A stretch of DNA of 64,000 nt from Brachybacterium halotolerans (GTDB lineage Bacteria; Actinomycetota; Actinomycetes; Actinomycetales; Dermabacteraceae), in the NCBI RefSeq assembly GCF_016623465.1, contig NZ_JAEDAJ010000001.1:565963-629962 (forward strand), written 5' to 3'. Below are positions 1,320 through 57,580 of this stretch, piece after piece. A program made the position numbers and the translations under genes. Numbering within the stretch: position 1 is the first letter of the stretch; each line of letters starts with the position of its first letter. The notes beneath the pieces are model-generated. The model saw nothing but the letters and a program-made list of their open reading frames with translations, was not told where the DNA came from and searched no databases.

Positions 1320-2579
1320 GACGACGCCGTCAGGGCGCGTCGCGGTGCATCGGTCGGACGTCGCCCGAGCATCACCGCCGCCGAGGCGGGCGGCCTGGCG
1401 CAGCAGGTGCTCGCGCTCAGGCAGGCTGCCTGCAATCCCCGCGGCACGAGCGTAGAGCTCTGCGGCGAGCTCGCGCCGCCCCGCCTTCTCGTGCATGTAT
1501 GCGTCGGCGGCCGTGCGGCGGGGCACGTCCTCGGCGACCTCGGCGAGTGCGGCCAGGCCGGCGAGCGCGCCATCGGCCTCCCCCACGGCGATCGCGCGGT
1601 TCAGCGCCACCACGGGGCTCTCGGTGAGTGCCAGCAGGTCGTCGTACCAGCCGGCGATCTGCACCCAGTCGGTCTCCTCGACGGTGCGGGCGTCCGCATG
1701 CAGCGCGGCGATGGCCGCCTGGGCCTGGAACGGCCCCAGCGAGCCGAGCGAGAGGGCGCACTGGAGGATTTCCACGCCCTCGGCGATGCCGTGGGCGTCC
1801 CACAGCGAGCGGTCCTGGTCCGCGAGCGGGACGAGGGCCCCGTCCGCGGCGAACCGGGCGGGACGCCGCGCATGGTGCAGGAGCATGAGCGCAGGCAGTC
1901 CGGCCGCCTCGGGATGGTCCACGGCGCGGTGCAGCTGGCGGGCCAGACGGATCGCCTCCGACGCGAGGTCGACCTCGCCCCGGTATCCCTCGTTGAAGAT
2001 CAGGTACAGCACCTGCGCCACGGTGGCGACGTCGCCGGGCTCATCGAGGCGACGTCCGGCGATCGTGCGCTTGGCGCGGCTGATGCGCTGGGCCATCGTG
2101 GCTTCGGGAACCATGTGGGCGGCAGCGATCTGTCTCGTGGTCAGTCCGGCGACCGCGCGGAGGGTGAGTGCGGCGGCGGCGGACGGACTGAGCGCTCGGT
2201 GGGCGCACAGGAAGAAGAGCTCGAGGGTGTCGTCGAGGCCCTGGGCACCGGGCGTCGTCACGCCGGGATACGTGTGCGCTCGGTCCTCCGCCTGCCTCGT
2301 GCTGAGCGCGTGGTCCGCCTCCTCCCTCCTGCGGCGGGAGGAGGCGGAGCGCACGGCGTCCACATGGCGTCGCCACGCGACGGTGACGAGCCATGCGGCA
2401 GGGTCGCGCGGCGGTTCCCGTGGCCAGCGCTCGAGCGCCTGGACGAGTGCCTCCTGGACGGCGTCCTCGGCGTCGGCGAAGTCGGCCCCGCGACGACGCA
2501 TCGCTGCGATCGTCGCGGGGACCAGCTCTCGGACTCGCCGGTCGTCGATCGGCGGGCGCGTCCCTCCCTCGGGACCCAC
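1317..2579 (-). CDS. ECF sigma factor with C-terminal TPR-like region (ECF42 type)
   Basis: 420 residues. About 1-95 is sigma region 2 (DAEDAVQEALVQALERWP; PAAWLVTVAWRRHVD). About 115-180 is sigma region 4 (TLRAVAGLTTRQIAAA, then AQRISRAKRTIAG). The remaining 230 residues are an alpha-helical region with LIFNEGYRG, VDLASEAIRLAR, ALHADARTVEETDWVQIAGWYDDL and SPVVALNRAIAVGEADG, the hallmark of the ECF42 group (DUF6596). Such sigma factors need no classical anti-sigma factor; the C-terminal part is thought to control activity. The gene starts at a GTG 10 bp after a DGPF-domain gene, the standard genomic partner of ECF42, so both are cotranscribed. The signal sensed is not known. Confidence 0.88.
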   Translation of the reverse strand: MGPEGGTRPPIDDRRVRELVPATIAAMRRRGADFADAEDAVQEALVQALERWPREPPRDPAAWLVTVAWRRHVDAVRSASSRRRREEADHALSTRQAEDRAHTYPGVTTPGAQGLDDTLELFFLCAHRALSPSAAAALTLRAVAGLTTRQIAAAHMVPEATMAQRISRAKRTIAGRRLDEPGDVATVAQVLYLIFNEGYRGEVDLASEAIRLARQLHRAVDHPEAAGLPALMLLHHARRPARFAADGALVPLADQDRSLWDAHGIAEGVEILQCALSLGSLGPFQAQAAIAALHADARTVEETDWVQIAGWYDDLLALTESPVVALNRAIAVGEADGALAGLAALAEVAEDVPRRTAADAYMHEKAGRRELAAELYARAAGIAGSLPEREHLLRQAARLGGGDARATSDRCTATRPDGVV

Positions 2580-2589
2580 GGCGGATGCT

Positions 2590-2997
2590 TCAGTCCTCGC
2601 CGGGCGAGTCCTCGCCGAGGAAGGGACGCACCTCGAGCCATTCGTGGATCGGCAGCCCGTCCTTGCCGGGCTCGGCCGAGAGCTCGGCCGCGAGCTCGAT
2701 GGCGCGCTCGCGGCTCTCGACGTCGATGACCATGCCCCCGGCGATGAGGTCCTTGGACTCGGGGAAGGGGCCGTCGGTGACGGGCGGCTTCCCCTCGCCG
2801 CCGTAGCGGACCCACAGTCCCTCCTCGGCGAGCGCCCCGGTGGCGACGAACTCGCCGCTCTCGCGCAGCCGGTCCATGAAGTCCTCCATGTAGCGCACGT
2901 GCGCCGTGACCTCGTCGGGCGTCCACGTGTCCATCGGATGGTCGTTCACGCCCTTGGGGGCGCCGCGGTAGTGCTTGAGGAGCAGGTATCGGGCCAT
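2590..2997 (-). CDS. YCII-related DGPF-domain protein, ECF42 partner
   Basis: 135 residues starting MARYLLLKHYRG, with the eponymous motif VTDGPFPESKDLIAGGMVID in the middle and a GG(M)xxDV turn as in YciI-like dimeric alpha-beta barrels. DGPF proteins are encoded next to ECF41/42 sigma factors across actinobacteria; their biochemical function is still unclear. The start at 2997 is fixed by AAGGAGG 6 nt upstream; longer readings add an Arg-rich tail. It is the first gene of a two-gene operon with the sigma factor. Confidence 0.85.
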   Translation of the reverse strand: MARYLLLKHYRGAPKGVNDHPMDTWTPDEVTAHVRYMEDFMDRLRESGEFVATGALAEEGLWVRYGGEGKPPVTDGPFPESKDLIAGGMVIDVESRERAIELAAELSAEPGKDGLPIHEWLEVRPFLGEDSPGED

Positions 2998-3037
2998 GAG
3001 GTTCCTCCTTGTGCGGGGCGGCGGGCTGCCGCCGTCG

Positions 3038-3850
3038 TCATGCGGGGGTCGGAGCCGCCGAGCGGTTCTCGACATCATCCTCCGAGGAGGATCGCGGGGG
3101 CTTCCGGGCCTCGATGAGGTGACGACTCGAGTGGGCGATGAAGGGGCCGTCGGACCGGATCTGCTCGTGCAGATCGCTCAGGCGGTCGCGGTGGGCGTCG
3201 ACGGTGAAGCCCGGGACCCACCAGATCACCTTGCGCAGAAGATAGACGACGGCGGCGACGTCGAAGATCTCGATGCGCAGCCGCGCGGTGCGCAGGTCGA
3301 CGACCTCGAGACCGGCGGCTCGGGCCTGCTCGGCCTCGACCTGGGGATCGCGCCCGCGGCGCTGCTCCGGCAGGGGGCCGAGGAAGAACTCGATGAGCTC
3401 GAAGGCGCTCGCGGGGCCGACGTGCTGGGCGAAGTAGCTCCCTCCGGGTCGCAGCACGCGGGCGATCTCGTCCCAGTGGATCGAGGCCGGGTGGCGGCTG
3501 GTGACCAGGTCGAAGGCTCCGTCGGCGAAGGGCAGCGGCGGTTCATCGGGGTCGGCGACCACGGCGACCCCGCGGGGATGCAGCAGCGCGGTGGCCCGCG
3601 CGATGTTGGGCGGCCAGGACTCCGTGGCGACCGCGAGCGGGGGAAACCTCGATGCGCCGGCGAGCACCTCTCCCCCGCCGGTCTGGATGTCGAGCGAGGC
3701 CGTCGCCCTCTCGAGGCGCTCCCCGAGCCGTCGCGCGTAACCCCATGGAGGGCGCTCCTCGGTCGCGCGGCCGTCGAGCCAGGAGAAGTCCCAGCCGGAG
3801 ACGTCGGCCTCCGCGCCGATCCGCAGCAGCTCGTCGAACGAAGTGGTCAT
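3038..3850 (-). CDS. Class I SAM-dependent methyltransferase
   Basis: 270 residues. A Rossmann-type methyltransferase: DIQTGGGEVL (motif I, about residues 54-63), VVADPDEPPLPFADGAFDLV (motifs II-IV) and IARVLRPGGSYFAQHVGP (post-IV). The region DFSWLDGRATEERPPWGYARR before motif I is common in actinobacterial proteins of this group. The substrate cannot be read from the sequence. Single gene divergent from the VOC-GNAT fusion; the ATG at 3850 follows a TAGCGT box by 6 nt, suggesting a leaderless message. The C-terminus ends in a Ser/Pro-rich tail. Confidence 0.8.
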   Translation of the reverse strand: MTTSFDELLRIGAEADVSGWDFSWLDGRATEERPPWGYARRLGERLERATASLDIQTGGGEVLAGASRFPPLAVATESWPPNIARATALLHPRGVAVVADPDEPPLPFADGAFDLVTSRHPASIHWDEIARVLRPGGSYFAQHVGPASAFELIEFFLGPLPEQRRGRDPQVEAEQARAAGLEVVDLRTARLRIEIFDVAAVVYLLRKVIWWVPGFTVDAHRDRLSDLHEQIRSDGPFIAHSSRHLIEARKPPRSSSEDDVENRSAAPTPA

Positions 3851-3856
3851 GGCGCA

Positions 3857-3862
3857 ACGCTA
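3857..3862 (-). promoter_or_regulatory. -10 box TAGCGT for the methyltransferase gene
   Basis: TAGCGT on the minus strand, 6 nt before the ATG at 3850. Confidence 0.5.
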
Positions 3863-3904
3863 GGGCCGACGGGGCGGCGGCGCCATGGGTTTCCTTCCGG
3901 TCGG

Positions 3905-3923
3905 TATTATAGATTGCTAGCAT
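3905..3923 (+). promoter_or_regulatory. AT-rich promoter region of the VOC-GNAT gene with palindrome TGCTAGCA
   Basis: In a window of about 70% GC this 19-bp stretch is almost wholly A/T and holds overlapping -10 candidates (TATTAT at 3905, TAGATT at 3910, TAGCAT at 3918) plus an 8-bp perfect palindrome TGCTAGCA at 3915-3922. It lies about 40 nt before the ATG at 3963, so this gene, unlike many neighbours, probably has a 5' leader. Confidence 0.45.
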
Positions 3924-3962
3924 CCGATCAGAGACCCCGCAGACGAGACAGAGAGCGAGCCC

Positions 3963-4910
3963 ATGACCGATGACATCCGCGCCCTGACCCTGATCGTCAC
4001 CGACCCCTCGGCCGCAGCCGCCGCACTGCACTCGATTCTCGACTGGGAGATCGAGGCCGACTTCGGCACGTTCGCGTCCCTCACGCCCGCCACGGGGATA
4101 CCGCTGTGGCTCAACGCTCCCGCGGACGGCGAAGCGACATCCTCGGGCATCGTCCTGCACCTCACGGCCGACGACGTCGACCGGGCCTTCACCGCCGCCG
4201 TCGACCGCGGGGCGCGAGCGGTGCGAGCCCCACAGGACATGGACTTCGGCGAGCGCTCCGCCTCGGTCGCCCTCACGGCGCTCCCCGGAGTCACCCTCGA
4301 CTTCTCGCACCCGATCACCCCGTCGCCCGGTTCCCTCGACGCGACCCCTCCCCAGAGGGAGGCCGGACACGATGCAGGGTCCGCGCGCGTCCACGACGGA
4401 GTCGCCACCGATCGGATCGAGATCCGCCCCGCGTCTCCAGGCGATGTCGAGGCGATCCGCGATTTCGGGGCCGACGTGATCCCCGCCCATTACGGACCGA
4501 TCATCGGCGAGGACGCCGCGCAGGGCCAGGTCGACCGCTGGTGGACGCGCGATGCCATCGAGCGATCGGTCTTCCAGGGGCATCACGTGGTCGCGATCGC
4601 CGCCGGCCGGATCGTGGGCGTCGCCGAGCGCGGCCGTCACGGCAGGGACCATGTGCTCTACAAGCTCTATCTCGCACCCGAGGCCCGCGGCCATGGGCTC
4701 GGACCCCGCCTCGTCGACAGCATCATCGAGCAACTGCCGGTGGGCACCGAGCGCCTCCTCACGGAGCACTTCGCCGGCAACACCCGCGCCGCCGCCTTCT
4801 ATGCGCGAGAGGGATTCGTCGAAGACCACATCGAGCCGCACCCGTCGGGCGACGTTGCGCAGGACACCGTGTGGCGGGTGCGGGATCTGGGGCAGGCCGG
4901 CGAGAGCTGA
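3963..4910 (+). CDS. Glyoxalase/VOC domain fused to GNAT acetyltransferase
   Basis: 315 residues with two unrelated domains. About 1-120 is a VOC (glyoxalase/bleomycin-resistance) half: ALTLIVTDPSAAAAALHSIL, GIVLHLTADDVDRAFTAAVD, and the ending SVALTALPGVTLDFSHP. About 150-310 is a GNAT N-acetyltransferase: IEIRPASPGDVEAIRDFG, the acetyl-CoA loop LAPEARGHGLGPRLVDSII, and the C-terminal NTRAAAFYAREGFVED. The joining stretch (about 120-150) is Pro/Asp-rich. Stand-alone versions of each domain are common; the fusion suggests one substrate bound or sensed by the VOC half and acetylated by the other, but neither substrate can be named. Only a weak ribosome-binding site precedes the ATG. Confidence 0.82.
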   Translation: MTDDIRALTLIVTDPSAAAAALHSILDWEIEADFGTFASLTPATGIPLWLNAPADGEATSSGIVLHLTADDVDRAFTAAVDRGARAVRAPQDMDFGERSASVALTALPGVTLDFSHPITPSPGSLDATPPQREAGHDAGSARVHDGVATDRIEIRPASPGDVEAIRDFGADVIPAHYGPIIGEDAAQGQVDRWWTRDAIERSVFQGHHVVAIAAGRIVGVAERGRHGRDHVLYKLYLAPEARGHGLGPRLVDSIIEQLPVGTERLLTEHFAGNTRAAAFYAREGFVEDHIEPHPSGDVAQDTVWRVRDLGQAGES

Positions 4911-4952
4911 CCCTCCGTCTTTGGTCTCGACCCGCGCCGACCATCGGCCAGA

Positions 4953-4975
4953 GGTGTCCACCAAACGTTGACACC
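4953..4975. promoter_or_regulatory. Palindromic operator GGTGTC-N11-GACACC over the -35 of the CPBP gene
   Basis: Perfect 6-bp inverted repeat (4953-4958 and 4970-4975) whose right arm lies inside a consensus -35 hexamer TTGACA at 4968-4973. A protein bound here would cover the promoter. The downstream operon encodes an HTH protein that could be the ligand. Confidence 0.55.
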
Positions 4976-4996
4976 CCGTCGAAGGCGGCGGAGCCT
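4968..4996 (+). promoter_or_regulatory. Promoter TTGACA-N17-GAGCCT of the CPBP-HTH operon
   Basis: TTGACA (4968-4973), a 17-bp spacer, GAGCCT (4991-4996, one mismatch to TANNNT at its first two bases), then 7 nt to the ATG at 5004. Geometry is that of a leaderless transcript. Confidence 0.55.
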
Positions 4997-5003
4997 CGAG
5001 GAC

Positions 5004-6104
5004 ATGAGCACCGCAGCCCAGAACCCCGCACCCGAGCATCCCGTCCCTCCGAGCTCCGCAGCGCCGCAGCGTCCGGCGCCGCGGATCGTCCCGCCGGTCG
5101 TCCTCGACCGCGTGCCGTGGAAGCGCGTGGGCCTGTTCGTCCTGCTCACCTATGTCATCTTCGCCCTGTTCGCCGCGCCCTTCTGGTTCCTGCCCGGCGG
5201 CATCGCGAACCCGTTCTTCACCCTGGTGATCGCGGTGGGCATGTGGGCGCCCGCGCTCGCCTCGATCATCATGGCGAAAGGCGTGGAGAGGACGAACTGG
5301 CGCACCCGAGTGGGTCTGCGCTTCCGCGGACGCTGGCGCGGGATCCTCGCGTGGTCGGTGATCGGCGTCGTCGCCATCGCGGCCGTGATCCTGCTGTCCT
5401 CGGTGGTCATGGTGCTGCGGGGAGTGCCGGGCGATCTCACCGGCGGCACCTGGCTGACCGTCGGCACCCAGCAGATCTCCGACCTCACGGGCACCGACAT
5501 CCCTCCCATCGCCTTCGTCCTGATCATGGCGATCAACCTGGTCTTCGGCCTGGTCGTCACGGCCGTCGCCGCGCTCGGCGAGGAGATCGGCTGGAGGGGC
5601 TGGCTGTGGCCGGCCCTGCGCCCGCTGGGCCGGGTGCGCGGTGCGCTCGTGATGGGTGTGATCTGGGCGCTCTGGCACACGCCGGTGATGGCGATCGGGT
5701 ACAACTACCCAGGCGTCGCCCGCTTCATCGCGATCCCGTTCTTCATCCTCCCGTGCATCGCGATGTCGCTGCTGTTCTGCGGCCTGGCCGACCGCGCGGG
5801 CGGCAGCCCCATCCCCTCGGCCTGGGCGCACTCGGCGGTGAACTCGCTCGGCTCCACGCTCATCGGCATCGTCAGCACGACGGCGACCGGCGCCGCCCTG
5901 AATCCGCTGATCGACACGCAGGCCGGAGTCGTCGGGGTCGTGCTGCTGCTGATCGCCGCCGCAGTCCTGGTCCCGTGGAGGGCACGGCGACCGATCGTGC
6001 ACGGGCTGCCGTCCGCGCCCGTCCCGTCGGGCGCCTCCGATTCCGCACCCCTCGCATCGGAGCCCGCACCGTCGGCGCCAGGATCCGGCAGGATCGAGGG
6101 GTGA
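5004..6104 (+). CDS. CPBP-family intramembrane glutamic endopeptidase
   Basis: 366 residues with about eight hydrophobic segments. After a Pro-rich cytoplasmic lead (about 1-40), motif 1 AALGEEIGWRGWLWPALRPL carries the two catalytic glutamates and the arginine, motif 2 GVIWALWHTPVMAIG carries the first histidine, and SAWAHSAVNS the second; together they define the CAAX/CPBP (Abi) membrane protease family. Members act in prenyl-protein processing in eukaryotes and in bacteriocin immunity or regulated proteolysis in bacteria; the target here is unknown. The C-terminal 45 residues are Ser/Pro/Ala-rich. The start at 5004 is supported by the promoter geometry. Its stop overlaps the next start by 4 nt (GTGA). 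Confidence 0.85.
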   Translation: MSTAAQNPAPEHPVPPSSAAPQRPAPRIVPPVVLDRVPWKRVGLFVLLTYVIFALFAAPFWFLPGGIANPFFTLVIAVGMWAPALASIIMAKGVERTNWRTRVGLRFRGRWRGILAWSVIGVVAIAAVILLSSVVMVLRGVPGDLTGGTWLTVGTQQISDLTGTDIPPIAFVLIMAINLVFGLVVTAVAALGEEIGWRGWLWPALRPLGRVRGALVMGVIWALWHTPVMAIGYNYPGVARFIAIPFFILPCIAMSLLFCGLADRAGGSPIPSAWAHSAVNSLGSTLIGIVSTTATGAALNPLIDTQAGVVGVVLLLIAAAVLVPWRARRPIVHGLPSAPVPSGASDSAPLASEPAPSAPGSGRIEG

Positions 6105-10443: not shown

Positions 10444-11535
10444 TCACGCCAGGCGGTGCAGCCACCCGTGGCGGTCCTCGACCGTGCCCGTCTGGATGCC
10501 GGTGAGCTCCTCGCGCAGGGACAGGGTGATCTCACCGGAGCCGCCGTCGCCGACGGTCCACGACCCCTTCGGGGAGCGGAACTCGCCGATCGGGTTGATC
10601 ACCGCCGCGGTGCCGCAGGCGAACATCTCGACGATCTCGCCGCCGGCGATCCTGTCCGTCACCCAGTCCATGCTCATCTTCTGCTCGCCGGGCTCGAGGC
10701 CGCGGTCACGAGCGAGCTGCAGGATCGAGTCACGGGTGACGCCCTCGAGGATCGAGCCGGTGAGCTCGGGGGTGAGGATGCGCCCGTCGTTCGTGATCGC
10801 CATGACGTTCATGCCGGAGAGCTCGTCGATGGTCGTGTGGGTCTCGGAGTCCAGGAACAGGACCTCGTCGGCCCCGTGCTCGGCGGCCTCCTTCTTGCCC
10901 AGCAGCGAGGAGGCGTAGTTGCCGCCGCACTTGGCGTCGCCGGTGCCGCCGGCGCCGGCGCGGGCGTAGGTGTCGGAGACCCAGACCACGAGGGGCTGCA
11001 CGCCGCGCGGGAAGTAGGCGCCGGCGGGAGAGGTGATCACGTAGTAGTCGACCTGCTGTGCGGCGCGCACGCCCAGGAACGACTCTGAGGCGAACATGAA
11101 CGGCCGGATGTACAGCGAGTCCTCGCCGCCGGCGGCGGGCACCCACGGCTCGTCGGCCGCGACCTGGGCCGTGAGCGACGCGAGGAAGTCCTCGGTGGGC
11201 AGCTCGGGCAGGGCGAGGCGGCGGGCCGAGCGCTGCATGCGCTCGGCGTTCTTCTCGGGACGGAAGGTCCACACGGAGCCGTCGGCGTGACGGAACGCCT
11301 TGAGGCCCTCGAAGATCTCCTGGGCGTAGTGGAAGACGGCCGCGGCCGGGCTCAGCGTGAGCGGGCCGAAGGGCACGACCTCGCCGCCGGTCCAGCCGTC
11401 CTCGGCCGTCCAGCGCGCGTGGGTCATGAAGTCGGTGAAGTGCTCGCCGAAGCCGGGCTTGGCGAGGACCGTCGCGCGGTCCTCGGCGGACTGGCTGCGG
11501 GTGGTCTCGGTGAGCGGGAACTCGAGATGGGACAT
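10444..11535 (-). CDS. ilvE: Branched-chain amino acid aminotransferase
   Basis: 363 residues, fold-type IV PLP enzyme that transfers the amino group between glutamate and the 2-oxo acids of valine, leucine and isoleucine (last step of their synthesis). Seen: YAQEIFEGLKAFRHADG near the N-terminus, the PLP lysine in GDAKCGGNYASSLLGKKEA, SGMNVMAITNDGRILTPEL and the phosphate-binding ACGTAAVINPIG near the C-terminus. The length suits the actinobacterial BCAT type. AAGGAG precedes the ATG at 11535 and a TATCCT box lies 29 nt upstream, so it has its own promoter, separated from leuB by 200 bp. Confidence 0.95.
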   Translation of the reverse strand: MSHLEFPLTETTRSQSAEDRATVLAKPGFGEHFTDFMTHARWTAEDGWTGGEVVPFGPLTLSPAAAVFHYAQEIFEGLKAFRHADGSVWTFRPEKNAERMQRSARRLALPELPTEDFLASLTAQVAADEPWVPAAGGEDSLYIRPFMFASESFLGVRAAQQVDYYVITSPAGAYFPRGVQPLVVWVSDTYARAGAGGTGDAKCGGNYASSLLGKKEAAEHGADEVLFLDSETHTTIDELSGMNVMAITNDGRILTPELTGSILEGVTRDSILQLARDRGLEPGEQKMSMDWVTDRIAGGEIVEMFACGTAAVINPIGEFRSPKGSWTVGDGGSGEITLSLREELTGIQTGTVEDRHGWLHRLA

Positions 11536-50659: not shown

Positions 50660-50895
50660 CCCGAGAGCACCCGAGGCACAGCTCCTGATCCGATGGGCTG
50701 CGTCCCAACACCCGGTCACCTCACCACTGGCATCTCACCGACCGCACCCGGTCGCGCTGCACCCGCTGTTTCGTCGGCGAGGGCATGCGCGCCGGGTGCG
50801 AGTCATGCCCGAGGCACGTGTGTCCTCGGCCTGCACCTCACACGCTCGGTGCACGAATCGCACGCACGTCCCGTGCCATCCGGGCTCGACGCGCA
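50660..50895. other. 236-bp gap between the HNH gene and the LysR gene
   Basis: No coding potential seen. One short perfect hairpin, CGACCG-CACC-CGGTCG at 50739-50754, could end HNH transcripts. Nothing else is recognised. Confidence 0.4.
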
Positions 50896-51813
50896 TCACC
50901 CGCGCTCAGCGCCGTCGGCGATCAGCGCCTGGAGCGCGCCCTCGAGCCGTCCCGGCCTCACGCCCGACCACACGGCCCGCAGCGAGCGCTCCACCGCGAC
51001 ACCCCGCACCGGCACCTCCACGAGACGTCCCTCGCGCAGATCCCCGGCGACCACCAACCGGCTCAGCAGGGCGCAGCCCGCGCCGCCCGCCACGGCGGTG
51101 CGCACCGCGGCGTTCGAGTGCAGCTCGAGTGCGGGCTCCGCGACCTCTCGCGGCGCGAGCGCCCGGGTGAGCACGTCACGCGTCCCCGACCCCTCCTCGC
51201 GCACCACAAGCGGTGTGCGCGCGAGCAGGTCCGCGTCGATCCCGTGCTCGAGCACGTCCCGATCCAGAGCCCACGGATGCCTCGGAGCGACCACAGCGAC
51301 CAGCCGATCCCGCGCGACCTCGAGCGTGGTGAGCTCGTGCGGCACCTCGAGGCCCTCCACGAACCCGAGATCCCCGCGCCCGCGGCGGAGCGCGGCGATC
51401 ACCCCGGCCGTGTTCTCGACCTCGAAGGAGACCGGCACACCCGGCTGGTCCGCGGCGAGGGCGGCGAGGAACGTGGGCATCAGGTGCTCGGCGATCGTCT
51501 GCGAGGCGAGGATCCGGATCCGCCCGGCGCCCGCGGCCGAGCGGACCTGCTCGACGAGCCCATCGGCCGCGTCGAGCACGCGCCGGGCATGCTCCACCGC
51601 GACCCGGCCCGCGGCCGTCGGCTCGGAGCCCCGCGCACCCCGATCCACGAGGCGAGCGCCCAGGCGTCGCTCGAGACGGGAGAGCTGTCGCGAGGCATTG
51701 GGCTGGGCGAGACCCAGGGCCGAGGCTGCGGCGGAGACGCTGCCCAGGTCGACCACGGCGACCAGCAGCTCGAGGGAGGCCAGGTCGGGCCTCGACGCAT
51801 CATGCAACGGCAT
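50896..51813 (-). CDS. LysR-family transcriptional regulator
   Basis: 305 residues. N-terminal winged HTH (about 10-70: LELLVAVVDLGSVSAAASAL, GLAQPNASRQLSRLERRLGA) and a periplasmic-binding-like effector domain (IRILASQTIAEHLMPTFLAA; DLGFVEGLEVPHELTTLEVA; PLVVREEGSGTRDVLTRAL). The REEGSGTRDVL segment is typical of the CysB/YeiE group. Divergent from a YeiH-type transporter, the usual target of YeiE-like regulators. ATG at 51813, 7 nt after TATCAT. Confidence 0.88.
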   Translation of the reverse strand: MPLHDASRPDLASLELLVAVVDLGSVSAAASALGLAQPNASRQLSRLERRLGARLVDRGARGSEPTAAGRVAVEHARRVLDAADGLVEQVRSAAGAGRIRILASQTIAEHLMPTFLAALAADQPGVPVSFEVENTAGVIAALRRGRGDLGFVEGLEVPHELTTLEVARDRLVAVVAPRHPWALDRDVLEHGIDADLLARTPLVVREEGSGTRDVLTRALAPREVAEPALELHSNAAVRTAVAGGAGCALLSRLVVAGDLREGRLVEVPVRGVAVERSLRAVWSGVRPGRLEGALQALIADGAERG

Positions 51814-51829
51814 ATCCCCGATGATATGC
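51810..51829. promoter_or_regulatory. LysR box GCATATC-N6-GATATGC and -10 TATCAT
   Basis: Perfect 7-bp inverted repeat spanning the LysR start codon and its -10 (TATCAT, 51826-51821). It contains the T-N11-A core of LysR sites. Binding here would repress the regulator gene and act on yeiH, whose start is 55 bp away. Confidence 0.7.
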
Positions 51830-51884
51830 GCCCGATCAGATCGACCACTACCGGGGACCGCCCTCAGCCGTGAGGCTGGATCAC

Positions 51885-53048
51885 ATGCCCGAACCCCGCC
51901 CAGACACTTCCCCGCGCACCTCGACCGCGACGGCGACGACGCCCGCGCCGTCGACCCGCCCGACGACACCGTCCGCCCCCACCCCGGGTTCCCCGCTCCT
52001 CCGCGTTCTGCCCGGGCTGCTGCTGTCGTTCGCCGTCGCCGGGCTCGCCTACGGCCTGGGAATGCTCGTCCCCGTGGCATCCCCGGCGCTCGCGGCGATC
52101 CTCGTCGGCGCGCTCGCGGCGAACCTGGGACTGCTGCCGCCGGCGCTGAAGCCAGGACTGGACCTGGCCGCGAAGCCCGTGCTGAGGATCGGGATCGTGC
52201 TGCTCGGTCTGCAGCTCGCGATCGGCGACGTGATCGCCCTCGGACCGCTGACCATCGTGGTGATCGTGGCGATCGTCGGCATCGGGATGGCGAGCGGTCT
52301 GCTCATCGGCCGGGCTCTGCACCTCCCGCCCACGCAGGCGCTGCTCATCGCCTGCGGGTTCTCGATCTGCGGCGCCGCCGCCGTGGCGGCGGCCGGCGGG
52401 GCGATCACGCCGCGGCGTCGCGAGGGCGAGAGCGCCGAGGAGGCGACCGAGCGCCTGGAGACGCAGATCGCGACGGCCGTCGCACTCGTCGTCGTGTTCG
52501 GGACGCTGATGATCCCGCTGCTGCCGCTCGTGGCCCGCGCCCTGGGCCTGGGCACGGACGCATCCGGGACCTGGGCCGGGGCGTCGATCCACGAGGTCGC
52601 GCAGGTCGTCGCCGCCGGCAGCATCCTGGGCGGCGGGGCGCTCGGCATCGCCGTGCTCGTGAAGCTGGGCCGGGTGCTGATGCTCGCTCCGGTGATCGCG
52701 ATCCTCACCGCCGTGGAGCGTCGAGCGGCGGAGACCGACCGGACGTCCGTCGACTCCCCCGCCGGCGCCCCCGCGCCCGCCGCCAAGCGCCCGCCCCTGG
52801 TCCCGTTCTTCGTGCTCGCGTTCATCGTCGCGGTGTGCATCCGTTCGACCGGTCTGCTGCCCGAGGCGGTCGTCGACGTCTCGAAGCCCGTGCAGGCGCT
52901 GTGCCTGGCAGCGGCGATGTTCGCGCTCGGGACCGGGGTGCGCGTGCGTCTGCTGAGGCAGGTCGGCGGACGTCCTGTGGTGCAGGCCGCGCTGGTCACG
53001 CTCGTGGTCGCGGCCGTCGGTCTCGGCGGGGCGCTCCTGGCCGCCTGA
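51885..53048 (+). CDS. YeiH-family putative sulfate/anion exporter
   Basis: 387 residues, about ten membrane helices. Seen: LPGLLLSFAVAGLAYGLGML, ALAAILVGALAANLGLLPPA, the signature KPVLRIGIVLLGLQLAIGD, LLIACGFSICGAAAVAAAGG and SIHEVAQVVAAGSILGGGAL, all hallmarks of the PSE (UPF0324) family. Function is inferred only from the family name and its LysR partner. The N-terminal 35 residues are a Thr/Pro-rich tail. The ATG at 51885 is chosen (GAGGCT 7 nt before); a GTG at 51870 is the alternative. Confidence 0.85.
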   Translation: MPEPRPDTSPRTSTATATTPAPSTRPTTPSAPTPGSPLLRVLPGLLLSFAVAGLAYGLGMLVPVASPALAAILVGALAANLGLLPPALKPGLDLAAKPVLRIGIVLLGLQLAIGDVIALGPLTIVVIVAIVGIGMASGLLIGRALHLPPTQALLIACGFSICGAAAVAAAGGAITPRRREGESAEEATERLETQIATAVALVVVFGTLMIPLLPLVARALGLGTDASGTWAGASIHEVAQVVAAGSILGGGALGIAVLVKLGRVLMLAPVIAILTAVERRAAETDRTSVDSPAGAPAPAAKRPPLVPFFVLAFIVAVCIRSTGLLPEAVVDVSKPVQALCLAAAMFALGTGVRVRLLRQVGGRPVVQAALVTLVVAAVGLGGALLAA

Positions 53049-53120
53049 GCCGGCTGCCCCGGACGGTCCGGCCCTCCCGCTCGGTCGTCCTGCCTGGTGA
53101 TCCCGCCCAGCCATCCCGCA

Positions 53121-53126
53121 TACCCT
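53121..53126 (+). promoter_or_regulatory. -10 box TACCCT of the uORF-hydrolase operon
   Basis: TACCCT, then 6 nt to the ATG of a 12-codon ORF at 53133; leaderless geometry. Confidence 0.55.
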
Positions 53127-53132
53127 GACTCC

Positions 53133-53171
53133 ATGAAGGATCCGACTCGCCGCGAGGGCACGCGCCCGTGA
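53133..53171 (+). CDS. Leaderless upstream ORF MKDPTRREGTRP coupled to the hydrolase
   Basis: 12-residue ORF beginning at the predicted transcript start. Its TGA overlaps the GTG of the hydrolase gene (GTGA, 53168-53171). Because the hydrolase GTG has no Shine-Dalgarno, re-initiation after this ORF is the likely way it is translated. The peptide itself shows no pattern (six charged residues). Confidence 0.6.
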   Translation: MKDPTRREGTRP

Positions 53172-54103
53172 ACCCGCTGCTGCGGGCAGTGCTGCGTCTG
53201 TTCGCCGCGCCGCGCATCGACATGCGCCAGGACTATGCGAAGGTGCGCCGGCTGCAGCGACAGTTGGCCGCGCGGCCGATCCCCCGGTTCCGCTCGCTGG
53301 ATCGGCAGATCATGTCCGCCGACGGCGGGCACCAGATCCCCGTGCGCGTGTTCTCGCCCAAGGAGCGTCGGCGCGAGGACGTGCTGCTGTTCTTCCACGG
53401 CGGCGGCTGGGTCACGGGCGACATCGAGAGCTACACCCCGGCGTGCGCGACGATGGCGGACCTCACCGGCTGCGTCGTCGCCTCGGTCGACTACCGCCTC
53501 GCGCCGGAGCATCCCTTCCCGGCGGGGCTCGAGGACTGTGCGCGCGTCGCGCGGCTGCTGCTCGAGGATCCGCAGCGCGCGGGCATCAGCGACCCGCGGC
53601 GCATCGTGCTGGTGGGCGACTCGGCGGGCGGGAACCTCGCCGCTGTGCTCTCGCTGATGCTGAGGGACGAGGGAGGGCCCGTGCCCTCGCGCCAGATCCT
53701 GCTGTACCCGGTGACGCACTGGGACCACGACCCCGAGACATCGCCGTTCGCCTCGGTGCGTCGCCATGGCAGCGACTACCGCCTCACCGACACCGAGGTC
53801 CAGGACTACATGGAGCTCTACGTCCCGGACCGGGGGCGCCGGCAGGACCCGCTGGTGGCGCCGCTGATGGCGACGGATCTGAGCGCCCAGCCCGAGACGC
53901 TGCTGATCACGGCCGAACTGGATCTGCTGTGCGACGAGGGCGAGGCCTATGGCGCCGCCCTCGCAGACGCGGGGAACGACGCGGAGGTGCACAGGGTCGA
54001 CGGCGCCCTGCACGGCTTCATCACCCTGCCCCGCTTCGCGCGCCCGCTGCGCGAGGCCTACCAGCACATCGACGCGTTCCTCGAGCGGACCTCGCCCACA
54101 TGA
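53168..54103 (+). CDS. Alpha/beta hydrolase, hormone-sensitive-lipase family
   Basis: 311 residues. Oxyanion motif LLFFHGGGWVTGD (HGGG, about residues 77-80), DYRLAPEHPFPAGLEDC, nucleophile elbow VLVGDSAGGNLAAVLSLM (serine about 149), acid and His from LITAELDLLCDEGEAYG and DGALHGFITLPRFARPL. A complete Ser-Asp-His triad, so an esterase of short acyl esters is expected. First enzyme gene of the four-part operon; the next ORF starts within its stop (ATGA). Confidence 0.87.
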   Translation: MNPLLRAVLRLFAAPRIDMRQDYAKVRRLQRQLAARPIPRFRSLDRQIMSADGGHQIPVRVFSPKERRREDVLLFFHGGGWVTGDIESYTPACATMADLTGCVVASVDYRLAPEHPFPAGLEDCARVARLLLEDPQRAGISDPRRIVLVGDSAGGNLAAVLSLMLRDEGGPVPSRQILLYPVTHWDHDPETSPFASVRRHGSDYRLTDTEVQDYMELYVPDRGRRQDPLVAPLMATDLSAQPETLLITAELDLLCDEGEAYGAALADAGNDAEVHRVDGALHGFITLPRFARPLREAYQHIDAFLERTSPT

Positions 54104-55608
54104 GCCGCCGGACCTGGGTGCGGCTCGACAACGCCTCGAACATCTTCCTCGCCGCGCGCACCGAGTCGGACACCAAGGTGTTCCGGCTGAGCGCCGAGAT
54201 GGATGCCGAGGTGGATCCGGGCGTGCTCCAGGAGGCCCTCGACGCGGTCTTCGAGCTCTATCCCCTCTACCGCGCGGTGCTGCGCCGCGGCGTGTTCTGG
54301 TACTACCTGCAGGACAGCGACCTGCGCCCCGTGGTCGAGCCCGAGCGTCGCCCCAGCTGCGCGCCGATCTACCAGGACGGCAGGCGCACCCTGCTGTTCC
54401 GGGTGATCCACCATCGCCGGCGGATCTCCCTGGAGGTCTTCCACGCGCTCTCCGACGGGACCGGGGCGATGTGGTTCCTCACCGACCTGCTCGTCGAGTA
54501 CGCGCGGAGGCGCTACCCCGCGGATGCGGCGGGCGCAGCGGGCGCGCCGGGGACGACGGACGGCGCGGAGACGCCGCGCGCGCCGGCTGCGGCCGCGGCG
54601 GGAGACTCCCCGTCCTCCCACGCGCTGGAGACCGACAGCTTCGCCCACTACTTCCGACGCCGCCGCCCCACCGCCTTCGAGGAGGCGTTCGCCGAGGCCG
54701 CCGCTCCCGCCGCGCTGACCCTCGCCGAGAAGACCGTGCGCGCGGCAGGCTCCACCGGCGGCATCCCGACGAGCGCCTCCCCCGCCCCGTCCGACGCCGT
54801 CCCCGCCGGGCCTGCGCGACGCACCCGCATCCACCGCGTCCGCGGCACCCGCACGCCGGACGACCGCACCCGCGCCGTCGAGCTGACGATGCCGACCGCC
54901 CAGCTGCTCGCCCTCTCGAAGGCCGCCGGAGCGAGCCCGACCATGTATCTCACGGCGCTGTTCATGGACGCGGTGCGCGAGTCCTCGGGCGGCCTGGGCA
55001 GGGCCCGCACGCTGAGCGCCTCGGTGCCCGTGAACCTGCGGCAGTTCTTCCCCTCCACGAGCGCCCGCAACTTCTTCGCGACCATCCGCGTCGAGCACAC
55101 CTTCTCCCCCGACGGCAGCGACGGCCGTGATGGCTCAGTCGGCCCAGACGGCCCCGACTCCCCCGAGGCGGTCGCCCGCGCCCTGGAGGCCGAGTTCCGC
55201 CCGCAGGCATCGGCCGCGGCGCTCGCGCCGAAGGTCGCGCGGTTCATCCGCGTGGAGCGCTCCCCGCTGCTGCGGATCGTGCCGCGTCCCCTCAAGGACC
55301 TCATCCTGGGCTGGCTGAACGCCGCCTCGAACCGGCACCTGAGCCTCGCGGTCTCGAACCTGGGGCGGCTGCGCCTGCCGGAGCCGGCGGCCTCGCACGT
55401 GGGCCGGGTGCTCTTCCAGGTCTCGGCCGCGCGCCCGCAGTTCTGCGCGATCTCCCACGGCGAGCAGATGACCGTCACCTTCACCTCGCCGTTCACTCAG
55501 ACCGGGCACGTGCGTGCCTTCGCCCGCTCGCTGAGCGCGCGCGGGATCGACGTGTCGGTGACGGCCGCCCGGGTCACCGAGGCCGAGCTCGCGGAGGTCG
55601 CGCCATGA
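54100..55608 (+). CDS. Condensation-domain-like acyltransferase
   Basis: 502 residues. The active-site pattern EVFHALSDGTGAMWFLTDLL (HxxxDG, about 110-129), the second half with AGASPTMYLTALFMDAVRES and SVPVNLRQFFPSTSARNFFA, and the C-terminal SNLGRLRLPE match alcohol acetyltransferase/PapA-like members of the condensation (BAHD, WS/DGAT) superfamily. An Ala/Gly/Ser-rich linker (about 145-240) joins the two lobes and a short Asp/Gly run (SDGRDGSVGPDGPD, about 345) is inserted in the second lobe. Coupled by 4-nt overlaps to the hydrolase before it and the zinc-ribbon protein after it. Acyl donor and acceptor unknown. Confidence 0.8.
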   Translation: MSRRTWVRLDNASNIFLAARTESDTKVFRLSAEMDAEVDPGVLQEALDAVFELYPLYRAVLRRGVFWYYLQDSDLRPVVEPERRPSCAPIYQDGRRTLLFRVIHHRRRISLEVFHALSDGTGAMWFLTDLLVEYARRRYPADAAGAAGAPGTTDGAETPRAPAAAAAGDSPSSHALETDSFAHYFRRRRPTAFEEAFAEAAAPAALTLAEKTVRAAGSTGGIPTSASPAPSDAVPAGPARRTRIHRVRGTRTPDDRTRAVELTMPTAQLLALSKAAGASPTMYLTALFMDAVRESSGGLGRARTLSASVPVNLRQFFPSTSARNFFATIRVEHTFSPDGSDGRDGSVGPDGPDSPEAVARALEAEFRPQASAAALAPKVARFIRVERSPLLRIVPRPLKDLILGWLNAASNRHLSLAVSNLGRLRLPEPAASHVGRVLFQVSAARPQFCAISHGEQMTVTFTSPFTQTGHVRAFARSLSARGIDVSVTAARVTEAELAEVAP

Positions 55609-56270
55609 GGCGGTGCACCGAGTGCGCGGTGCGGATCGAGGGCAACTGGTCGCGCTGCCCGCTGTGCGGGTCGCACCTGGTGGGCCATCCCTCCCCCGAT
55701 CCGCTGCCGAGTGTGCCCCTGCGCTTCTCCCGCCGTCGCCTGCTGCGGATCCTCACGGTGATCTCGCTCGTGCTGGTCGCGATCTCGTTCGTCGTCCAGC
55801 TGTGGCTGGGGCATCGACCGGCCGAGTTCGGGGCGGTCCGCTCGGTGTGGCTGGGCGTGTGCACCATGTGGCTGGTCGCGCTGATGGCGCTGCGCGGCCG
55901 ACGCGACCTCGCCCGGTCCACCCTGACGCTGCTGGTCCTGGCCGCGCTCGTGTGCACGTATTGGGACTATCTGACCGGCTGGCATCGCTGGTCGCTGACC
56001 TTCGCGGTGCCGATCATGTGCGGATGCGCGATCATCGCGCTGGTGATCCTCGAGCACGTCATGCGCCTCGAGGTCGGCGAGCACGCCCTCTACAGCGCGC
56101 TCACCGTGCTGCTGGGGATCGTGCCGATCCTCTTCCTGCTGCTGGGCTGGGTGACCACGCCCGTGCCGTCGGCGATCTGCGTGGTGCTCGCGCTGCTCTC
56201 GCTCGCGCTGCTGCAGCTCGAGCGCGCGGCGGAGGTTCGCGACGAGCTCGCGAAGAAGCTCCACGTCTGA
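55605..56270 (+). CDS. Zinc-ribbon membrane protein (DUF6320)
   Basis: 221 residues. N-terminal CxxC-x13-CxxC zinc ribbon (CTECAVRIEGNWSRCPLCGS), then six membrane helices from about residue 45 to 205 (RRLLRILTVISLVLVAISFV onward) and a charged cytoplasmic end. This family is encoded beside alpha/beta hydrolases and alcohol acetyltransferase-like proteins in several phyla, an association that argues for one membrane-bound system. Function unknown. Overlaps the acyltransferase stop by 4 nt. Confidence 0.78.
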   Translation: MRRCTECAVRIEGNWSRCPLCGSHLVGHPSPDPLPSVPLRFSRRRLLRILTVISLVLVAISFVVQLWLGHRPAEFGAVRSVWLGVCTMWLVALMALRGRRDLARSTLTLLVLAALVCTYWDYLTGWHRWSLTFAVPIMCGCAIIALVILEHVMRLEVGEHALYSALTVLLGIVPILFLLLGWVTTPVPSAICVVLALLSLALLQLERAAEVRDELAKKLHV

Positions 56271-56326
56271 GTCGCGCTCCTCGGGGCGGCCGGTGGCGCG
56301 TCCTTCACGCTCGGTTCTCGATGCGC

Positions 56327-57580
56327 TCAGCCCTCGACGCGCTCGGCCCAGGCCGGCGCCGCGCGCAGCAGGGTCTGCAGATCGCTCTCGTCCAGGAGGG
56401 ACGCGCGGGAGGGCTCGGCCGACGGGTCTGTGCCGCCGCCGGGAAGGGCGGGGCCGACGGCCCGATCCGGTCGATGGGCGAGCCACGTGAAGCCCGCGAG
56501 GTCGCGCGGACCGAAGCCGAGCTCCCGCCAGCTGCGGGTGACGGACCCGAGCTGCGCCTCGAGGCGCTGCGGGCCGGCGGGATCCACGACGAGCTCGATG
56601 CCGACTCCGGCCTCGCGCAGCTCGGCGAGCAGCTCCCAGGCGGAGAAGCCCGCCGGGGAGAGCGCGAGCCGGGTGGCGCCGGCGGTGCGGGCGGCGCTCA
56701 GCAGCGCCGTGTCGCCGCTGGGCGCGAGGGTCACGTCCTGGACGTCGAGGCCCGCTCCGGACCGGAGCTCCTCGAGCAGGGTGCGCCAGACCTCGCCGAT
56801 GTCGGGAACGGGCAGCGCCGGGTAGCGGCGGTACTCCGAGGGCGTGGGGATCGCGCCGCGTGCCAGCGCGAGGGCGGCGCCGTCGCGGATCAGCAGGCGC
56901 GGCCGGGCGCCGGGCACGTGGCTGCGCACCGCGTCGAGGTGCTCGGCGATGCCCTCGGCGAGCAGGTGCGGGAGGTCGCGCAGGGCACCGCGGTCGGCGA
57001 GGGTGCGCTCGCCCGAGCCGAGGAAGGTCGCGGCGGCGAGGGTGAGCGGGCCGAGCGTGGTGACGACGAGGTCGCCCTCGTACCCGTGCAGGGCGATGCG
57101 GGCGGCCTCGAGGAGGCGCTCGCGCAGCTCCTGGGCGCGACGCCACGTGCGCGAGCTGCCCGGCCCGATCCGCCATCCGTAGCTCGCGAGATCGCCCGTG
57201 GTGCCGGCGAGCAGGGTGAGCGATTGCGGGAGCAGCTGGTCGGCACCCTCGGTGCCGAGCGCCGCGGGCAGGAACAGGCGCGTGGCGATCTGCTCCTCGA
57301 GGTCGTCGCCGAGCAGGCCCCGCAGACGGGTGAGGGCGAGCAGGCGGTCCGCATCGCCATCCGCGAGATCGGAGGCACCGCCGGACGTCCGCGCGTCCCG
57401 GCCGCCGGTCGCCCCGGACGGCACGTGCCCGGTCAGCATCTGCCCGGTCGTCTCCTGCCGGGTCGGCACCTGCCAGGTCCCGTCGCCCGTGATCGTCACG
57501 AGAGGATCGGCGCCCGTGGTGCCGCCGCCCGCCGCGCGCTGTTCCGTCACGCGGCCCTCACTCATGCGGCCCACCGTCAT
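56327..57580 (-). CDS. MetE-like TIM-barrel protein (Rv3015c type)
   Basis: 417 residues. Resembles the C-terminal half of cobalamin-independent methionine synthase: TRLFLPAALGTEGADQLLPQ, LASYGWRIGPGSSRTWRRAQ, GYEGDLVVTTLGPLTLAAAT, VRSHVPGARPRLLIRDGAAL. The zinc-binding His/Cys ligands of true MetE are not seen, so catalysis of homocysteine methylation is doubtful. The first 75 residues are a Gly/Thr-rich extension. Its ATG overlaps the mnmA stop; the iscS-mnmA-MetE-like order is conserved in actinobacteria including mycobacteria, so a link to sulfur or tRNA thiolation is possible. Confidence 0.75.
   Translation of the reverse strand: MTVGRMSEGRVTEQRAAGGGTTGADPLVTITGDGTWQVPTRQETTGQMLTGHVPSGATGGRDARTSGGASDLADGDADRLLALTRLRGLLGDDLEEQIATRLFLPAALGTEGADQLLPQSLTLLAGTTGDLASYGWRIGPGSSRTWRRAQELRERLLEAARIALHGYEGDLVVTTLGPLTLAAATFLGSGERTLADRGALRDLPHLLAEGIAEHLDAVRSHVPGARPRLLIRDGAALALARGAIPTPSEYRRYPALPVPDIGEVWRTLLEELRSGAGLDVQDVTLAPSGDTALLSAARTAGATRLALSPAGFSAWELLAELREAGVGIELVVDPAGPQRLEAQLGSVTRSWRELGFGPRDLAGFTWLAHRPDRAVGPALPGGGTDPSAEPSRASLLDESDLQTLLRAAPAWAERVEG

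Follow-up and report, generated by a model that had tools for sequence, protein, structure and literature searches.

The coupling of genes through leaderless small ORFs is already known from mycobacteria, where such ORFs meet the downstream gene in an RTGA stop/start tetramer and encode unconserved peptides (PMC4633059, in the text available). For uPPE2-PPE2, the accessible part of PMC11260477 describes an SD-less gene that depends on its uORF through an AUGA overlap, with termination-reinitiation having been measured; coupling terms are absent from PMC9094748. The operon analyzed here resembles the coupled mycobacterial ORFs (Shell et al. 2015) in a short ORF predicted to be leaderless, in its RTGA overlap, and in keeping the architecture but not the peptide, and differs from them in belonging to another genus of Actinomycetota and in being a single operon traced through 28 loci. 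Similarly, it differs from uPPE2, whose uORF carries an SD of its own together with a riboswitch according to the portion of that report at hand, whereas the uORF here is leaderless as judged from its -10 box and is accompanied by no riboswitch at the Rfam threshold. On the enzymatic side, Clo1313_1074 (WP_003519433.1) of Clostridium thermocellum is reported to acetylate 2-phenylethanol with acetyl-CoA but not linear C2-C10 alcohols and to be active in E. coli without DUF6320, and is placed by its authors in an operon with an esterase/lipase; they state its in-vitro activity without presenting data (all from PMC8112048, in the sections available). To that same extent, the main text of PMC8112048, which was the sole source on Clo1313_1074 and WP_003519433.1 in the literature searched, lacks the term 'zinc ribbon' and makes no mention of DUF6320. 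The Clo1313_1074 locus shares with the window both the acyltransferase (ACT) family and the hydrolase-ACT-DUF6320 gene order. AATase, PapA-type and condensation-domain enzymes have the HxxxDG motif and weak profile matches in common with ACT, but ACT is unlike them in having a separate membrane protein with a zinc ribbon as its partner; to our knowledge, no such separate partner is known for those families.

The window, meaning the whole 64,000-nt stretch of Brachybacterium halotolerans DNA that was analyzed (GCF_016623465.1, NZ_JAEDAJ010000001.1, positions 565,963-629,962, forward strand), contains the following features:

53121..53126, + strand: -10-like hexamer TACCCT, ending 6 nt 5′ of the uORF ATG; called from sequence and a genome spacing control
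53133..53171, + strand: predicted leaderless 12-codon mini-ORF, MKDPTRREGTRP, with a GTGA stop/start overlap with the hydrolase gene
53168..54103, + strand: alpha/beta hydrolase, HSL type (Abhydrolase_3), 311 aa; HGGG 77-80, GDSAG 150-154, S152/D252/H282
54100..55608, + strand: HxxxDG acyltransferase (ACT), 502 aa; HALSDG 115-120; CAT/AATase/PapA-like, under the Pfam cut-off
55605..56270, + strand: DUF6320 membrane protein, 221 aa; CxxC/CxxC zinc ribbon C4-C7, C18-C21; six helices

The uORF runs from its ATG at 53133 to a TGA at 53169-53171, with the hydrolase GTG at 53168, and ATGA overlaps join the hydrolase gene to ACT (ATG at 54100) and ACT to DUF6320 (ATG at 55605). A preliminary description of this DNA had proposed this same arrangement, with a leaderless 12-codon uORF, GTGA and ATGA overlaps, an esterase with an intact triad, an HxxxDG acyltransferase, and a six-helix DUF6320 protein carrying a CxxC/CxxC ribbon. 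Each of these elements was borne out, the leaderless start as a prediction: the overlaps and coordinates are correct, TACCCT lies 6 nt upstream of the uORF, the Abhydrolase_3 protein has S152, D252 and H282, the acyltransferase motif occupies residues 115-120, and the membrane protein matches the DUF6320 profile (PF19845) at 141 bits against a cut-off of 29.9, its structure model (mean pLDDT 84) comprising the ribbon and six helices. The description had further held that all four ORFs are translated in series. This is too strong because the DUF6320 gene has its own SD-like GGAGGT and because DUF6320 starts have an SD run of at least 5 nt in 16 of 28 scored genus loci (28 starts were scored for each gene, but the loci differ between genes).

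Distances from TANNNT to ATG were compared over 464 kb of the genome, comprising the window and twenty sampled 20-kb stretches. TANNNT was found 6-7 nt 5′ of an ATG in 48 cases, whereas nine other pairs of spacings gave 3-9 cases each, and 37 of these 48 ATGs lead straight into ORFs of at least 100 aa with high GC3. Another three of the 48 begin mini-ORFs whose stop overlaps the start of a long ORF in NTGA, an arrangement that occurred once at the control spacing of 10-11 too. A simple consensus scan revealed neither a consensus -35/-10 pair upstream of the uORF nor a sigma-70-like promoter for the hydrolase 3′ of the uORF. The hydrolase start of the window has an SD run of four (GAGG), 10 nt 5′ of the GTG and inside the uORF; runs of 4 nt occur at 10 of 28 hydrolase starts in the genus, the window included, and runs of at least 5 nt at none of the 28. 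A hydrolase promoter and ribosome-binding site downstream of the uORF, which had been proposed as evidence that would speak against the uORF, were thus not seen. The absence of a strong SD is consistent with translation that depends on the small ORF, and the operon is probably expressed by means of a very short leaderless ORF from which ribosomes pass to the hydrolase gene. The codon-position G+C of the mini-ORF (0.83/0.59/0.84) weakly resembles that of the hydrolase (0.72/0.51/0.96).

Across the genus, 28 loci that are related to each other and have a readable hydrolase start were scored, leaving out L032 (start off the contig), L041 and L062 (no hydrolase), and L061, which has no start codon at the aligned hydrolase position and where visual inspection shows an in-frame ATG 7 nt 3′ of TAGAGT at -39. 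A leaderless mini-ORF is found in 21 of the 28, in several chromosomal contexts, and is missing from the other seven. These 21 ORFs lie in one common frame, comprise 11-15 codons (12 in 15 cases), and retain the RTGA-type stop/start overlap, which in the window is the GTGA at 53168-53171; they were found by a -10 box 6-7 nt upstream, and this spacing is thus not independent. Because the loci are related, the recurrences are not independent events either. The encoded peptide is not conserved, with 32, 54 and 34 differences at codon positions 1, 2 and 3 among 16 close pairs. In four genus loci the operon is coupled directly to another upstream gene, and in G005, where the hydrolase is absent at the locus, ACT is preceded by a 38-codon ORF of the leaderless type that overlaps it in GTGA.

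The hydrolase matches Abhydrolase_3 (PF07859) at 220.3 bits (cut-off 25) and places its catalytic D252 and H282 30 residues apart; HGGG, GDSAG and the Ser/Asp/His triad have roles typical of HSL-type alpha/beta hydrolases. More specific names were rejected, as matches to LipP1 lipase (NF058653, 259.3 bits) and chloramphenicol hydrolase (NF033149, 184.1 bits) fall under their equivalog cut-offs of 350 and 500, respectively. In some relatives Cys replaces the catalytic Asp.

The window ACT has a single Pfam match, to PapA_C at 16.3 bits (cut-off 30), and no other family at E 0.1; among 21 ACT sequences, matches at E of 0.1 or below were to PapA_C in 17, AATase in 12 and Condensation in three. 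Membership in the curated PapA or alcohol acetyltransferase families was rejected, as their profile cut-offs were not reached. The HxxxDG motif, catalytic in the CAT/condensation superfamily, is present in 13 of 13 ACT sequences of set A2 and, except for one doubtful call (the 642-aa ORF of L123), in the ACT ORFs called in Bacillota (72 of 73). The preliminary description regarded the trio as having no assigned product, which is only partly right, since a relative of the middle enzyme, encoded within the same trio, has been assayed. In a genome of the right genus, both published cloning primers for Clo1313_1074 match a 426-aa ACT ORF without mismatch, and this ORF is flanked by a hydrolase gene (46% identical to that of the window) and a DUF6320 gene (32%). 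On the basis of this primer match, Clo1313_1074 is identified as the middle gene of such a trio. The window ACT is 33% identical to it over an alignment of 484 (E 2e-100).

The partnership of ACT with DUF6320 extends far beyond this operon. DUF6320 and ACT occur in an identical set of 31 of the 38 genus genomes (the G017 copy of DUF6320 being broken), and each of the 10 Actinomycetota genomes, out of 396, with DUF6320 above cut-off has a strong ACT match (10/10); G225, where DUF6320 falls below cut-off, has no ACT match. All three genes are adjacent in 71 ACT-centred Bacillota/Chloroflexota loci, counted within the best 80 of at least 564 and thus biased towards relatives of the query, in line with the earlier claim that the trio recurs in distant phyla. 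Starting instead from DUF6320 in Bacillota, ACT adjoins it in 16 of the 18 places examined out of 20 (G442:C38, which is L083's own trio, and G798, below cut-off, were omitted). ACT and DUF6320 are near-obligate partners. The hydrolase, matched at E 1e-40, occurs in 30 of 38 genus genomes, which is the ACT/DUF6320 set minus G005; it is not beside ACT in three of the same best 80 of at least 564 loci, and is away from its usual position in 9 of the 18 DUF6320-centred places. Independent occurrence of the families, named at the outset as contrary evidence, was accordingly not seen for ACT and DUF6320 but was partly seen for the hydrolase, which appears to be the usual but separable, least obligatory member of the trio. 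The gene set is found in Bacillota, in other Actinomycetota families, in one Chloroflexota MAG and in this genus, which probably acquired the trio from Bacillota.

No paper on DUF6320 was found in the literature searched. The window model resembles only generic helical bundles when compared to solved folds (VIA-align), and in a sequence comparison one PDB chain matched the protein at E 0.034, the alignment being confined to residues 1-24. The zinc ribbon was counted with a profile for each DUF6320 segment. Within the best 80 of at least 564 ACT-centred loci it is present in 67 of 67 separate DUF6320 frames and in none of nine fused to ACT, and a tenth ACT-DUF6320 fusion, L079 from another class, also lacks it, versus eight of eight separate frames with the ribbon in its sample. 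The ribbon is likewise present in 31 of 33 segments from the genus (the other two being pieces of the broken G017 copy), in eight of eight from other Actinomycetota, and in 15 of 18 from DUF6320-centred Bacillota. Among the three Bacillota segments without it, L220 is the second half of a split frame, L224 is a weak DUF6320 match, and L223 is a true exception, a separate ribbon-less frame beside ACT; because of L223 and the weak L224, the ribbon is not strictly tied to the unfused state. Nor is the history of fusion simple, since L090 and L092 are unfused and have the ribbon, yet group in one clade with the nine fusions. L226 was rejected as a further fusion, its ACT ORF having no DUF6320 match and its separate DUF6320 frame carrying the ribbon; the doubtful L123 ORF was not counted among the fusions; and an earlier count of 56 of 57 on called DUF6320 ORFs, whose one miss was a 554-aa miscall in L156, was superseded. 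Loss of the ribbon in the ten fusions and its retention in separate frames suggest that the ribbon probably docks ACT.

On balance, these comparisons favor the view that the trio encodes a CoA-dependent alcohol O-acyltransferase tethered to the membrane and an esterase that partners it, expressed via a leaderless mini-ORF. ACT would use its HxxxDG histidine to acylate a hydrophobic alcohol at its hydroxyl, taking an acetyl or short acyl group from acyl-CoA, a step based on the activity reported for one relative and on the motif seen in the window ACT. DUF6320 would fix ACT to the membrane on its cytoplasmic side, with the ribbon as the dock, as the ribbon's loss in fusions suggests, and the HSL-type hydrolase would probably deacylate the ester so formed or one related to it. 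The ribosome is predicted to start at the 5′-terminal AUG of a leaderless transcript, translate 12 codons and restart at the GTGA overlap, in which case the hydrolase would need no strong SD. The architecture comes from comparison, transcription start and re-initiation are inferred, and the sequence of the peptide would be irrelevant. Since Clo1313_1074 is reported to work in E. coli without DUF6320, an anchor would be dispensable for activity as such. As to the natural acceptor, which none of the neighboring genes identifies in the genus and relatives' loci read, a membrane-soluble or aromatic alcohol is our first guess. The preliminary description of a membrane-bound ester- or lipid-modifying system thus fits in its membrane association and ester formation, while 'lipid-modifying' goes further than the evidence, because alcohols are the only acceptors reported as tested.

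A bolder version, which we hold more tentatively, is that DUF6320 proteins are membrane receptors of condensation-type acyltransferases with a detachable ribbon dock, which would be superfluous once ACT and DUF6320 form one chain; the complex would acylate a membrane-soluble alcohol in an undescribed lipid modification and be expressed from a portable leaderless launch ORF. If the preferred reading is right, DUF6320, a family of unknown function, gains a testable role, and at least 564 ACT relatives can be assigned a probable type of reaction together with a membrane partner. The trade of ribbon for fusion makes a clean prediction on docking. The uORF series amounts to a natural experiment in which an SD-weak gene is kept translated while its neighbors change, and a launch ORF of this kind, if real, would be portable and able to switch its downstream partner within the genus.

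Two other functions were weighed for the proteins. It is unlikely, but the least so of the alternatives, that the trio is a protective acylation switch in which ACT acetylates a toxic hydroxylated small molecule of internal or external origin, the esterase reverses this, and DUF6320 is a sensor or exporter. Pairs of acetyltransferase and acetyl-hydrolase serve in self-resistance, and here a CAT-type motif lies beside an HSL esterase with a sub-threshold chloramphenicol hydrolase match (184 bits, cut-off 500), the assayed relative acts on a small aromatic alcohol, and the gene set appears stand-alone and horizontally spread; however, ACT is bound more tightly to DUF6320 than to the esterase, fusions retain the membrane part, and no biosynthetic cluster or resistance context appears among the neighbors read. 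Less probable again is envelope O-acylation, where ACT would load DUF6320, the acyl group would cross the membrane to a surface glycan or teichoic acid, and the hydrolase would recycle it. The close pairing of a six-helix protein with an acyltransferase would suit such a scheme, and all 46 of the DUF6320 sequences compared from the window and Bacillota share D121, E214 and H220, leaving room for a function beyond anchoring. Yet a wider alignment has no invariant acidic or His residue in the membrane part. Also in its favor, a TraX-cluster gene lies downstream in 11 loci (of the best 80 of at least 564), some Agathobaculum loci encode a sulfatase-domain protein downstream, and Anaerotruncus has a neighboring gene of the diacylglycerol kinase family, but such neighbors are confined to few lineages, and the assayed relative used free alcohol without DUF6320.

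The mini-ORF, too, admits other readings. That it encodes a regulatory leader peptide (attenuator or sensor) and does not serve to deliver ribosomes, we consider improbable. On the transcript predicted for this metabolic operon it is the first ORF, and small uORFs of mycobacteria enriched in a single amino acid have been proposed to be regulatory (PMC4633059, in its available text), but the peptides here diverge, frame and overlap are kept in ORFs of just 11-15 codons, no Rfam family reaches the gathering threshold in 50800-56400, and the 5′ end folds no better than shuffled sequences. It is more improbable still that the mini-ORF is a chance artefact and the hydrolase simply leaderless or reached by frameshift. 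In favor of this, the leaderless ATG of L033 and L050 shares its frame with the hydrolase, the hydrolase ATG of L040 itself lies 7 nt after TATCCT, high G+C makes short stop-free frames easy, and the codon-position signal is weak. However, all 23 upstream leaderless-type ATGs, albeit from related loci, share either the frame of the coupled mini-ORF (21) or that of the hydrolase (two), with 0 of 23 in the third, and the length differences among the 21 mini-ORFs are multiples of three throughout.

All four reading frames of the preliminary description were found, with their overlaps, in the window (G+C content of 70-76% per 4 kb; host genome, 3.85 Mb over 24 contigs):

53133-53171, + strand: mini-ORF, a predicted leaderless frame of 12 codons, its TGA stop within GTGA
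start 53168, + strand: HSL-type hydrolase, 311 aa, its GTG start inside the GTGA shared with the mini-ORF stop
start 54100, + strand: ACT, an HxxxDG acyltransferase of 502 aa, ATGA overlap with the hydrolase
start 55605, + strand: DUF6320 membrane protein, 221 aa, ATGA overlap with ACT
DUF6320 residues 43-67, 76-96, 102-124, 129-153, 157-179 and 187-219: helices 1 to 6 of the model

The hydrolase matches Abhydrolase_3 at 220 bits and has S152, D252 and H282 all present, ACT carries HALSDG at residues 115-120 and has a single Pfam match, which falls below cut-off, and the DUF6320 profile matches at 141 bits. The predicted DUF6320 structure (mean pLDDT 84, pTM 0.70) comprises a ribbon plus helices; the basic segments that precede helix 1 and separate helices 2 and 3, judged by eye, fit cytoplasmic ends.

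ACT and DUF6320 are the core of this gene set, with the hydrolase as a common partner, given the co-occurrence of the first two and the patchier distribution of the third. Of 38 genomes of the genus, 31 have DUF6320, and exactly these 31 have ACT; the hydrolase (E value of 1e-40 or better) was present in 30 of 38, that is, the DUF6320 set minus genome G005. Among 396 sampled Actinomycetota genomes, DUF6320 exceeded its cut-off in 10, all with a strong ACT match, and in an eleventh with DUF6320 below cut-off (G225) no ACT was found. One genome (G220) had a strong ACT with a weak DUF6320 match adjoining it, and another (G182) gave only a weak ACT match. The order hydrolase-ACT-DUF6320 was seen in all nine loci taken from other families of Actinomycetota, and in locus L079 ACT and DUF6320 share one frame. 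A scan of GTDB genomes for ACT yielded at least 564 confirmed relatives; among the best 80 loci, all three genes were adjacent on one strand in 71, the rest comprising three contig-end cuts, three loci without hydrolase and three without DUF6320 nearby, two of which had DUF6320 elsewhere in the genome. With DUF6320 as the starting point, it was over cut-off in 17 of 398 Bacillota genomes, and ACT adjoined it in 16 of 18 places examined, the hydrolase being in its usual position in nine (L221 has a weak hydrolase match 3' and L217 a hydrolase piece 2.3 kb off). Both places without adjacent ACT, L208 and L224, are weak DUF6320 matches, the latter adjoined by a helix-turn-helix ORF. The preliminary observation is right, and better supported than it was from the window sequence alone; the near-obligate pairing of ACT with DUF6320 is new as far as the literature was searched.

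Several further features were seen at these loci. L208 encodes a helix-turn-helix protein (1438-2352, - strand) whose C-terminal part is a DUF6320-like membrane domain (42.6 bits), and it has no ACT nearby. In L219 a pectinacetylesterase-like gene (4399-5637) follows ACT-DUF6320, with no adjacent hydrolase of the trio's family, and a TraX-cluster gene (representative PF05857, 159 bits) lies two to four genes 3' of ACT in 11 of the 80 loci L083-L162. Cys replaces the catalytic Asp of the hydrolase in L073, L075, L077, L078, L080 and L081, that is, in six of seven rows of other actinomycetotal families in alignment A3, and in five of 68 Bacillota hydrolases. Decaying or misassembled copies occur in G017 (L061/L062, DUF6320 split across two contigs, with a stop) and in G027 (L038, hydrolase in two frames).

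ACT and DUF6320 are fused in one frame at ten loci: nine from Lachnospiraceae and related Clostridia, plus L079 from another class. None of these ten has the paired CxxC motifs of the zinc ribbon, and in the nine clostridial fusions the DUF6320 profile match starts past it, whereas the ribbon is present in 67 of 67 separate DUF6320 frames among the best 80 of at least 564 ACT loci and in 8 of 8 from other Actinomycetota. The ribbon therefore appears to have been dropped on fusion in two distant lineages, a trade that is new as far as the literature was searched. A counter-example is L223, where a ribbonless separate DUF6320 frame (3888-4472, +) is overlapped by an ACT whose N-terminus carries a long basic extension (2192-3913, +). 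L090 and L092, which are unfused and have the ribbon yet fall within the clade of the nine fusions, also count against a simple rule. Among 11 aligned sequences that span the groups, all four ribbon cysteines are invariant, and the membrane part has no invariant acidic residue or histidine; D121, E214 and H220 are invariant in the window protein and 45 Bacillota and related sequences. We infer that the ribbon would dock ACT and the six helices anchor it.

The preliminary description saw here a membrane-bound ester- or lipid-modifying system and the window's best candidate for an undescribed pathway. A membrane system that forms esters is likely right in kind; the claim of an undescribed pathway needs correcting, since one relative has assayed activity. 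According to PMC8112048, the Clostridium thermocellum protein Clo1313_1074, whose operon also encodes an esterase/lipase, acetylates 2-phenylethanol in E. coli cells but is inactive on linear C2-C10 alcohols; its activity in vitro is stated there as data not shown. Its published forward primer, searched against six genomes of the Acetivibrio mesophilus genus, had one match, exact, in one genome. The ORF (426 aa; ACT profile E 5.5e-184), whose end matches the reverse primer, is probably Clo1313_1074, an identification resting on the primers. It is 33% identical to the window ACT and lies, as in the window, between a hydrolase (46% identical to the window's) and a DUF6320 gene (32%). In a tree of 91 ACT sequences (midpoint root, for drawing only), the ten genus rows form one group within a 28-row set (support 100/100), the remainder being Bacillota and one Chloroflexota MAG and including L132 and L138, relatives of the assayed enzyme. 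We read this nesting as suggesting acquisition of the genus ACT from Bacillota. 2-Phenylethanol may be a surrogate for the natural acceptor, to which no consistent pointer was found among neighbour genes.

The mini-ORF was followed in loci from the other 30 genomes of the genus that match DUF6320, the hydrolase start being readable in 28 loci, window included. In 21 of these related, hence non-independent, loci an ORF of 11-15 codons (12 in 15 of the 21) runs from a leaderless-type ATG to an NTGA overlap with the hydrolase. In L033 and L050 such an ATG shares the hydrolase frame, and none of the 23 upstream leaderless-type ATGs lies in the third frame. In L036, L037, L048 and L055 a preceding gene, of one family in all four, has its stop overlapping the hydrolase start, and in L040 TATCCT lies 7 nt ahead of the hydrolase's own ATG. 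Shine-Dalgarno runs of at least 5 nt precede none of the 28 hydrolase starts, as against nine ACT and 16 DUF6320 starts; runs of 4 nt precede 10, 16 and 25, respectively, and in the window GAGG lies 10 nt 5' of the hydrolase start. The peptide is not conserved (32/54/34 differences at codon positions 1/2/3 in 16 close pairs), and its codon-position G+C of 0.83/0.59/0.84 is weakly coding-like. The arrangement is kept in several chromosomal contexts. L041 (G005) has lost the hydrolase; there a 38-codon ORF whose ATG lies 6 nt after TAGGCT overlaps ACT by GTGA (ACT begins near position 4850 in the oriented locus). A ribosome-loading device would be expected to look like this. Mycobacterial coupled leaderless small ORFs likewise combine conserved architecture with unconserved peptides, as described in PMC4633059, and termination-reinitiation was measured for a uORF with an AUGA overlap in PMC11260477. 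By this analogy the genus mini-ORF would be a fresh example of a type already described; as a portable leaderless launch ORF ahead of an ACT-DUF6320 set it is new as far as the literature was searched. Directly 5' of the trio in the window is a Cons_hypoth698 membrane protein gene (51870-53048, +), divergent from a LysR regulator (50896-51789, -), a neighbourhood common only to nearest relatives among the fetched genus loci.

In the window a -10-like TACCCT ends 6 nt before the mini-ORF ATG. Across the window and twenty 20-kb stretches of the host genome (464 kb in total), TANNNT lies 6-7 nt ahead of an ATG in 48 cases, versus 3-9 for each of the nine other spacing pairs scanned; 37 of these 48 starts lead straight into ORFs of at least 100 aa with high GC3. 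Leaderless starts are therefore likely common in this genome. Three of the 48, the window's and two others, are mini-ORFs that overlap a long ORF by NTGA, and one more such case came from the control spacings, so that the coupled form is rare, yet not unique, in the host genome. The two others lie at 10826 and 15421 of L171, a host-genome locus.
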